NCBI GenBank assembly: GCA_937951485.1
Contig: CALEDJ010000020.1
Coordinates: forward strand, 1-64,000
DNA: 64,000 bases
Direction of reading: 5' to 3'
Source of the DNA: an uncultured bacterium
GTDB taxonomy: Bacteria; Hydrogenedentota; Hydrogenedentia; Hydrogenedentales; CAILVY01
In this document: positions 54,795-57,520 of the stretch, piece after piece
Layout: each line of letters begins with the position of its first letter
How positions within the stretch are numbered: the stretch's first letter is position 1
Notes under the pieces: model-generated
Seen by the model: only the letters and a program-made list of their open reading frames with translations
Databases searched by the model: none
What the model was told of the DNA's origin: nothing
Made by a program: the position numbers and the translations under genes

Positions 54795-54916
54795 AAACAA
54801 TCACCCAGCCGCCCTTGGGGGCGGAACCTTTCCGATTTCTGGAATGCCTGGGGGCTTGAAGTCTGAAAATTTATTCAGTATTCTAAAGGGCGCATCAACA
54901 ACAAAGGAGACCGGCC

Positions 54917-57520
54917 ATGAAGATGACGGAACTGATCCGATACGATGTGCCTGCGGACGTGGTGGCGTTGTGGCGGGAGCGGGAAGGGGAGACGCTGCTG
55001 CCGCTGCAGGAAGTGGCGGTGAAGCGGCACGGGCTGTTCGGGGGGGAGAATCTGCTGATTCAGGCGCCGACCAGTTCGGGCAAGACCTTTATCGGAGAGA
55101 TGGCGGCGATTCAGACGGCGCTGCGCCGCCGGAAGGTGGCGTATCTGGTGCCGCTGAAGGCGCTGGCGGAGGAGAAATACCGGGATTTTCGGGAGAAGTA
55201 CGAGCATTACGGGCTGAAGGTGATTGTGTCGAGCCGGGACCGCCGCGAATATGACCGCGACTTCGAGGCGGGCGACTTCGCGATTGCGGTGGTGGTGTAC
55301 GAGAAACTGGCGCAACTGCTGGTGCGGCGTCCGGAGCGCCTTTCCGAGATTCATCTCGTGATAGCGGACGAATTGGAACTGCTTTCCGATCCGGACCGGG
55401 GGGCGATGGCGGAATTGCTGTTGGCGCGGGTGCTGCGGGCGGGCCGCCGCCTCATCGGGCTTTCGGCGGTGCTGGGCGGCGCGGATCGGCTGGCGGCGTG
55501 GATGAACGCCCGGCTGGTCGCCTACGAGCGGCGCCCGGTGGAACTGCGCTACGGCGTGCTGCACGGCGGCGTGTTCCGCTACCGCGGCTACAACGACGGC
55601 GCAGAGGGCGAGGAGGCGATGGAGGACGCGCCGGGCGAGTCGGCCTGGGAGATTCTCACGCGGAACGTGGCGCGGTTGGCAGAGCGGGGCGAATCGAACC
55701 TGATTTTCGTGAAGGCGAAGCACGAGTCGCGCCGTGGCGCGGAATTGCTGGCGGGCCGGTTGCGGCTTCCGGCGGCGGAACACGCGATCGCGGCACTGCG
55801 CCGGCGCGAGCCGACCCGGTCGCGCGACACGCTCATCGAGACGCTCGGCAGCGGAATCGCCTTCCACAACGCCGATATGTCGCCGGAGGAGCGGGCCATC
55901 GTGGAGCGGGCATTCCGCGAAGGGGAAATCAGGGTGATGGTGTCCACCAGCACGCTGGCGGCGGGGATGAACCTGCCCGCGCGCAACGTGTTCCTCAGCG
56001 CCGAGAAGTGGCGCTACGATCAGCGGCTGGGCATCCCATGGAAAACGCCGCTGCTGCGGGCGGAATACGAGAACATGAGCGGCCGCGCCGGCCGTTACGG
56101 CGCGGGCCACGCCTTCGGGCGCTCCGTGCTCATCGCGACCACGCCGTTCGATCAGGAAACGCTGTGGCGGCGCTATGTGGAGGGCGATCGGGAAGCGGTC
56201 GAGCCGCGCCTGGCGGGAGAATCGCTGGAGAACCATGTGCTGCGCCTGACCGCCTCCCGGTGTTGCCGGACTTCCGAGGAGTTGCTGGATTTCCTGGAGA
56301 GCACGCTCAGCGGGCGCTGGGTCTGGGCGGAGAACTATCCCCTGGACGAGATCGCCTTCAAAATCCGCGCCGCCGTCAACCGCTGCGCCGATGCCGGGGC
56401 GATCCAGATCAACCCGGAGGGCGGGCTGGACGCCACGCCCTTCGGCATGGCGGCGGCGGCGCGGGGCGTGTCCATCACCACGGCGCACGAACTGGCGCAC
56501 TGGATCAGCGAGTCGGAGACGCGGGACTGGATTGACCTGGACCTGCTGTTCGCCGCCGCATCGGTCCCCGACGCGCGGCTGGTGCAGGTGTCGCTGAGCG
56601 CACGCGAATACGAGCGGGCGGACTACCCCGGCCTGCTCAAGCGCGTCACGCGCGACGAGCCGATCGCCGCCGATGTCCCCATGAACCGCATCCGCAACTG
56701 CAACCTGCAGCCCTTTTTCGACGAGGTGCGCGCCATCAAGATCGCCCTGTTCCTCAACGAATGGATCGCGCAGTCGCCGGTGCGCGACATCGAGGATCGC
56801 TACCACACCATGATCGGCCAAATCCTCGCCGCCGCCGACCAGATCAGTTGGATCATTGACGCGACCGCCGCCATCGCCGCCGCGCGCGGCGCGTGCGGCG
56901 CGTTCACGGACCGCATCCGCACGCTGGCTGAGCGGACGCAGCGCGGCCTGCGCGAGGAAATGCTGCCGGCGGCGCGGTCCGGCGCGCCGGGACTTGACCG
57001 TAACGCATTGATCCGGCTGCATGCCCACGGCCTCTGCGACGCCGCCGCCATCGCCGCCGCGCCCCAGGCCGTACTCGCCCAGTGGATGCCCGCCGATACC
57101 GCGCGCGCCCTCAGGGCGTGGGCGCGCCTGGAACACCCCCCCGCGCCGCCGGGACCGCCCGAAGCGCCGCCGGCCGCGCGGATGCCGGCGCTGATCGTGG
57201 ACGACGCCTCCCCCGGCGAGGCGCTGGTGGACGGCGCGCGCGTGCCGCTCCAGGAAAAGCAGTACCGGATGATCCGCGTGCTCGCGGCCAATCCGGGCGT
57301 CTGTGTGCCCTATGACTGTATCTACAAGGCGGTTTGGGGCGACACCGTCGTCGAGGACAACCAGATGCACTTCCAGAAACGTAAACTCGCCGCCGCCATC
57401 GCCGCCGCATCGCCCCGCCGCGACGGGCTGATCAAGACCATTCCCAAACGCGGCTTCATGCTCGACATGCCCCCCGAAGAGGTATTGGTGAAAGCCTTGG
57501 CGGTCGTGCATGCCGCGTGA
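54917..57520 (+). CDS. Ski2-like superfamily 2 helicase with C-terminal OmpR-type winged helix
   Basis: 867 residues. The helicase core has Walker A APTSSGKTF (residues 50-58), a DExx box reading DELE at 151-154 (Hel308 has DEIH), motif III SAV at 183-185, motif V TSTLAAGMNLPA (about 344-355) and motif VI MSGRAGRYG at 387-395. This is the order of Hel308/Ski2 enzymes, which unwind DNA or RNA 3'-to-5'. A helical region follows. The last 105 residues (about 763-867) match an OmpR/PhoB transactivation winged helix (LQEKQYRMIRVLAANPGVCVPYDCIYKAVWG; IKTIPKRGFML). No nuclease domain is seen. It is flanked by 9-bp arrays. Confidence 0.85.
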   Translation: MKMTELIRYDVPADVVALWREREGETLLPLQEVAVKRHGLFGGENLLIQAPTSSGKTFIGEMAAIQTALRRRKVAYLVPLKALAEEKYRDFREKYEHYGLKVIVSSRDRREYDRDFEAGDFAIAVVVYEKLAQLLVRRPERLSEIHLVIADELELLSDPDRGAMAELLLARVLRAGRRLIGLSAVLGGADRLAAWMNARLVAYERRPVELRYGVLHGGVFRYRGYNDGAEGEEAMEDAPGESAWEILTRNVARLAERGESNLIFVKAKHESRRGAELLAGRLRLPAAEHAIAALRRREPTRSRDTLIETLGSGIAFHNADMSPEERAIVERAFREGEIRVMVSTSTLAAGMNLPARNVFLSAEKWRYDQRLGIPWKTPLLRAEYENMSGRAGRYGAGHAFGRSVLIATTPFDQETLWRRYVEGDREAVEPRLAGESLENHVLRLTASRCCRTSEELLDFLESTLSGRWVWAENYPLDEIAFKIRAAVNRCADAGAIQINPEGGLDATPFGMAAAARGVSITTAHELAHWISESETRDWIDLDLLFAAASVPDARLVQVSLSAREYERADYPGLLKRVTRDEPIAADVPMNRIRNCNLQPFFDEVRAIKIALFLNEWIAQSPVRDIEDRYHTMIGQILAAADQISWIIDATAAIAAARGACGAFTDRIRTLAERTQRGLREEMLPAARSGAPGLDRNALIRLHAHGLCDAAAIAAAPQAVLAQWMPADTARALRAWARLEHPPAPPGPPEAPPAARMPALIVDDASPGEALVDGARVPLQEKQYRMIRVLAANPGVCVPYDCIYKAVWGDTVVEDNQMHFQKRKLAAAIAAASPRRDGLIKTIPKRGFMLDMPPEEVLVKALAVVHAA

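Follow-up and report, generated by a model that had tools for sequence, protein, structure and literature searches.

A Hel308-like helicase with an OmpR/PhoB-type winged-helix tail and a predicted LexA box in its promoter in Hydrogenedentota

Helicase gene and domain architecture

The window analysed here, a 64,000-nucleotide stretch from an uncultured Hydrogenedentota bacterium (contig CALEDJ010000020.1, positions 1 to 64,000), carries a gene for an 867-amino-acid protein at positions 54,917–57,520 of the forward strand, on which all features of the window described below also lie. Pfam, a PDB search, an AlphaFold2 model and Foldseek identified the protein as a Hel308-like helicase with a C-terminal OmpR-type winged helix–turn–helix (wHTH) domain. 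It matched the Pfam families DEAD (1.2e-21), Helicase_C (6.5e-11) and Helicase_dom4_arc (3.8e-10), and all three matches, like that of the tail to Trans_reg_C, were above the Pfam gathering cut-offs. The best PDB sequence match was the archaeal Hel308/Hjm structure 2zj2 (E 2.9e-73, residues 16–693), bearing out, together with the Pfam matches, the full SF2 Ski2/Hel308-like core recognized in the initial annotation. Furthermore, Hel308 structures were the top Foldseek matches (E 1.4e-38) of the model (pLDDT 82.8).

The Hel308 domain order RecA1–RecA2–winged helix–ratchet–helix-hairpin-helix (HhH) was found over residues 1–740 by Pfam, the PDB search, the model and Foldseek. The RecA1 domain (residues 1–215; positions 54,917–55,561), delimited by Pfam, motif alignment and the model, includes motif I APTSSGKT, motif II DELE (residues 151–154; 55,367–55,378) in place of DEIH, and motif III SAV (residues 183–185; 55,463–55,471) in place of SAT. 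The RecA2 domain (residues 216–430; 55,562–56,206; Pfam and model) includes motif IVa FHNADM (residues 316–321; 55,862–55,879) in place of F/YHHAGL, which in archaeal Hel308 is a switch controlling annealing and unwinding (PMC10484726). The motif alignment confirmed the DELE and SAV readings made earlier and indicated that DELE, SAV and FHNAD are lineage-wide variants rather than peculiarities of the window. Walker A, motif V and the GRAGR of motif VI are all intact. The usual central winged helix of Hel308, domain 3 (residues ~431–520; 56,207–56,476), was located by the model and a Hel308 alignment, and domain 4, the ratchet helix bundle (residues ~521–690; 56,477–56,986), by the model and Pfam (PF21280 at residues 599–677). 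Domain 5 is HhH-like in the model (residues ~691–740; 56,987–57,136), with sub-cut-off HHH_5 matches in the relatives L060, L061 and L066. It is followed by a linker of variable sequence modelled with low confidence (residues 741–757; 57,137–57,187; pLDDT <50 at residues 744–754).

The gene is flanked upstream by a gene for a calcineurin-like phosphoesterase and downstream by one for an EF-hand protein; no nuclease or partner gene lies next door, as noted previously. Neither neighbour is kept beside the helicase in relatives, and no conserved partner gene was found across 21 Hydrogenedentota neighbourhoods, that of the window included.

The C-terminal OmpR/PhoB-type winged helix

The tail (residues 758–859; 57,188–57,493) was identified by Pfam, the PDB search, the model and Foldseek. 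Residues 774–849 matched Trans_reg_C (PF00486) at 8.9e-7 within the whole protein and at 3.3e-8 when the tail was searched alone. Modelled alone (pLDDT 89.7), the tail showed the OmpR topology of an N-terminal beta-sheet, three helices and a C-terminal beta-hairpin. Its sequence match in the PDB was the ArlR DNA-binding domain (E 0.02), and its fold matches were BaeR, ArlR, CadC, PhoB and other OmpR-family members (E down to 2.5e-6), including the RpaA/RNA polymerase and GlnR transcription complexes. Contacts with RNA polymerase are known for OmpR-family domains. No receiver domain was found by Pfam ahead of the tail in the 867-residue protein, in which only helicase domains precede it. The assignment of the C-terminus to the response-regulator kind in the initial annotation is thus upheld by the profile, the model and the fold search; Pfam and the model ruled out both a tail without a winged-helix profile match and a tail that is simply Hel308 domain 3, the latter being present separately in the model.

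The helicase is single-copy in 59 of 68 Hydrogenedentota genomes and in 36 of the 38 of good quality, a count in which a few split genes were scored as two pieces. The tail was present in all 32 analysed orthologues whose C-terminus was not cut by a contig end, and the helicase–tail architecture is phylum-wide and old. The tail has a mean pairwise identity of 60% among orthologues, above that of the HhH region (37%) and of the linker (26%), which indicates constraint on the tail. The combination of a helicase with an extra OmpR-type winged helix is neither a chance pairing nor an orphan. The earlier interpretation of a Hel308-like core with such an additional domain holds, and what it had overlooked is the spread of the architecture through the phylum and the LexA box described below.

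Within Hydrogenedentota, Q816, H818, Q820, K821, K844 and R845, located in the recognition helix and the wing, are invariant or nearly so. The recognition helix alpha3 (residues 816–831; 57,362–57,409), defined from the model and the tail alignment, begins with Q816 and carries K821. The corresponding Q was present in 22 of 22 OmpR-type tails compared, and the K five residues later in 21, the remaining one having R. This Q-x4-K signature is common across phyla, and the ArlR comparison sequence has neither the Q nor the K. Its retention across phyla argues against recognition of a species-specific operator, and the conservation of helix 3 would better fit a common nucleic-acid feature.

Promoter and predicted LexA box

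Alignment of 32 orthologous promoters placed a −35 element, TTGAAG, at positions 54,856–54,861 (phylum consensus TTGACA) and a −10 element, TATTCT, at 54,879–54,884 (phylum consensus TATAMT). The spacer between them is filled by a predicted LexA (SOS) box, CTGAAAATTTATTCAG (54,863–54,878), which fits CTGAAN6TTCAG and was recognized by comparison with orthologue and lexA promoters. A ribosome-binding site, AGGAG (54,905–54,909), was read from the upstream sequence 7 nt before the ATG. A generic promoter scan did not call the helicase promoter, whose −35 and −10 elements are weak in the window member (8 of 12 consensus bases). The layout TTGACA, one base, CTGA-N8-TCAG and TATAMT was nonetheless shared, with small variations of the box, by 31 of the 32 orthologues.

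A perfect CTGA-N8-TCAG within 250 bp upstream was found for 26 of 32 helicase orthologues, compared with 0.13% of shuffled regions and with 5 of 193 genes in the surrounding regions (Fisher p 1.7e-23); by coordinates, at least two of these five boxes are the helicase's own, so that the contrast is understated. In the 4.55-Mb assembly of the window, CTGAAN6TTCAG occurs at only two sites, one of which is the helicase box; the second is not evidently linked to any repair gene. The divergent family f5 has GTGA-N8-TCAC at the helicase and a GTGA half-site in its lexA promoters as well, indicating that the two boxes change in concert.

The box comparison covered lexA loci L109–L138 and L196–L207 and recA loci L142–L170. 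Of 30 genomes, 28 have CTGA-N8-TCAG ahead of lexA. For recA, a box with zero or one mismatch preceded each of the 29 genes located, mostly with GTGA or ATGA half-site variants, and these boxes cluster ~35–110 bp ahead of the start, usually in the form GTGA..TTCAG; the recA gene of the window's own genome (L157) also has a half-site variant upstream. Because ~7% of shuffled 250-bp upstream regions contain a box with one mismatch, the evidence from recA lies in the consistency among genes and not in single sites. The promoters of lexA, recA and the helicase together predict CTGAA-N6-TTCAG as the Hydrogenedentota LexA box, with GTGA half-sites in f5.

The lexA gene is present in 36 of the 38 good-quality Hydrogenedentota genomes. 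A search of the assembly containing the window (G000; 94% complete) found none, and the two nearest relatives have the gene. LexA-type boxes are nonetheless present at the helicase and recA, and the missing lexA may be due to a gap in the assembly or to loss of the gene. Outside Hydrogenedentota, lexA is immediately followed by the helicase, in the same orientation, at two loci, L060:6656-10017, where the genes overlap, and L062:1-3139. Their promoter holds a GCTAAC-N4-GTTAGC dyad between −35 and −10, which is probably the LexA box of another lineage. In L106, lexA adjoins the helicase divergently.

The promoter palindrome thus recurs at lexA and recA, covaries with the lexA box in f5 and belongs to a gene that is lexA-adjacent in another lineage, which together argue that the helicase is a member of the SOS regulon; DNA damage very probably induces its expression. 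Autoregulation by the tail, considered as the source of the palindrome, was dropped because lexA and recA carry this palindrome too.

Relatives outside Hydrogenedentota

Matches were found in ~20 of 318 sampled bacterial genomes and in 8 of 294 Planctomycetota genomes, a few of them partial or limited to the shared core. The relatives read at full length include a first set whose OmpR-type tail is homologous to that of Hydrogenedentota (hhalign E 1e-29). A second set has a tail designated 'GW', which matched the OmpR-type set from outside the phylum at E 2e-7 and whose direct link to the Hydrogenedentota tail is weak. The 'GW' wHTH, which has no Pfam match, was seen in L061, L067, L068, L074, L075, L080–L082 and L171. 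Other C-termini without a Pfam match occur in L085:1588-4209 (+), L066:5780-8560 (−), L069:5739-8531 (−) and L007:8001-10895 (+); that of L085 holds ELLIECKSV, which is reminiscent of a PD-(D/E)XK nuclease motif.

A quick tree built from the helicase core separated the bacterial lineage and HamB-like proteins from archaeal Hel308 with an SH-aLRT of 99, on a weak rooting. The protein scored 264.5 bits against the NCBI Hel308 equivalog NF040935, far below its cut-off of 1200. By that cut-off it would not count as a Hel308 orthologue, and it appears to represent a bacterial sister lineage marked by DEL[E/Q], SAV and FHNAD. Despite falling outside Hel308 membership, it in all likelihood works in a Hel308-like manner.

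Phage and plasmid origins were also considered and rejected. Phage matches were partial and mostly to archaeal-virus helicases. Three near-identical IMG/VR matches (L171–L173) encode a 'GW'-related helicase, a distant relative with the other tail type, the tail having been read in L171. The bacterial plasmid matches inspected proved to be HamB-like. Plasmids of Agrobacterium, Hymenobacter and Bosea (L192, L193 and L195) carry HamB-like helicases near genes for TIR, caspase-family, multiubiquitin or UvrD-helicase proteins, and these regions are possibly uncharacterized defence loci.

Discussion

Hydrogenedentota carry a helicase of two-part architecture, conserved throughout the phylum and preceded by a common LexA-type operator. 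We propose, with a probability of about 0.78, that it is a DNA-damage-inducible SOS repair helicase in which a Hel308-type core is joined to a tail giving a second contact. Its most likely task is fork or gap repair, a function that we infer from homology and regulation only. In the scenario considered, LexA would occupy the CTGA-N8-TCAG operator inside the promoter in undamaged cells, blocking RNA polymerase. RecA-coated single-stranded DNA would lead to LexA self-cleavage, and the helicase would then be made. Judging from the biochemistry of Hel308 and HELQ, the core may use the single-stranded DNA of stalled forks or gaps as its loading site and, on the same grounds, may move 3' to 5' and unwind or remodel the branch. 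The tail, on its flexible linker, would most likely provide a second contact, with duplex DNA or a partner, helping to recruit or hold the enzyme at the damaged fork.

Two other roles for the tail may be weighed against this scenario. The tail might bind DNA sequence-specifically and so direct the helicase to defined sites, a plausible suggestion already made in the initial annotation, or allow the enzyme to control its own or other promoters. Its confident OmpR/PhoB fold and the near-invariance of Q816, H818, Q820, K821, K844 and R845 in the phylum are in keeping with such a role, which we nevertheless regard as doubtful, as Q-x4-K is kept across phyla whereas operators diverge, the promoter palindrome is accounted for by LexA, and the receiver domain of a response regulator is missing. 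A related proposal, equally tentative, is that the tail of an SOS-induced enzyme reads a particular fork structure or DNA sequence that has been conserved from phylum to phylum and so aims the Hel308-type motor at defined chromosomal sites. The tail might also be chiefly a protein-interaction module, for example for RNA polymerase, SSB or a part of the replisome. The contacts of OmpR-family domains with RNA polymerase, the RpaA and GlnR complexes among the fold matches, and the variation of tail type among relatives around a constant core point that way; the basic and polar residues conserved on the DNA-facing helix and wing point the other, and we consider a predominantly protein-binding tail unlikely.

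Two further readings concern the core itself. An ordinary bacterial Ski2-like RNA helicase would have the same core, which is found in Brr2, Mtr4 and Ski2, but in both sequence and fold the protein is closest to two DNA helicases, Hel308 and Pol theta, and regulation by LexA also makes an RNA helicase very improbable. An anti-phage helicase of the HamB type, in Hachiman or a variant of it, was suggested by PADLOC HamB models matching the core (E 2e-35), by the position of HamB-like helicases as the sister group in the core tree, and by the role of HamB as a sensor of genome integrity (PMC12278908). The hallmark of HamB is an N-terminal alpha-helical bundle (PMC12278908). By Pfam and the model, this bundle is absent from the protein, whose core starts at about residue 26, compared with ~260 additional amino acids in the HamB-like plasmid proteins. 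HamA was found in 3 of 68 Hydrogenedentota genomes and not in that of the window, and the helicase occurs in one copy across the phylum without conserved neighbours. A defence system was thus rejected, the PADLOC matches reflecting the shared core only, and the HamB-type reading, to which we give hardly any credence, is largely refuted. The LexA box in the promoter likewise argues for SOS repair rather than defence.

Hel308 has been stated to be absent from bacteria (PMC12278908). The present analysis describes a Hel308-like lineage that is near-universal in one bacterial phylum, sporadic elsewhere and tied to the SOS response, offering a bacterial setting for studying repair of the Hel308/HELQ type. 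The helicase is a likely repair relative of HamB, the sensor helicase of Hachiman, and raises the testable question of why a helicase needs the DNA-binding domain of a response regulator. In the literature searched, which included few subscription journals, neither a LexA-regulated or OmpR-tailed Hel308-like helicase nor a LexA box of Hydrogenedentota was described.

Among known systems, the helicase resembles archaeal Hel308/Hjm (2zj2, 2p6r and 2va8) and metazoan HELQ in its five-domain layout (Foldseek TM ~0.86 on the target). It differs from Hel308 in its extra C-terminal wHTH, its separate tree branch, its score of 264.5 against 1200 bits and its motifs, the bacterial lineage having DEL[E/Q/D], SAV and FHNAD where Hel308 has DEIH (or DEVH), SAT and F/YHHAGL. 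With HamB of Hachiman (8vx9), the nearest tree branch, it shares a Ski2/Hel308-like DNA helicase core; unlike HamB, it is chromosomal, conserved in its phylum and equipped with an OmpR wHTH, and has neither HamA nor the HamA-binding bundle. The tail resembles the OmpR/PhoB DNA-binding domain (PF00486) in its fold and its above-cut-off Pfam match, but, unlike in OmpR/PhoB regulators, it is fused to a helicase without a receiver or sensor domain and carries Q-x4-K in helix 3. DinG and UvrD are LexA-controlled DNA-repair helicases in other bacteria; they belong to other helicase families, DinG being XPD-like SF2 and UvrD SF1.
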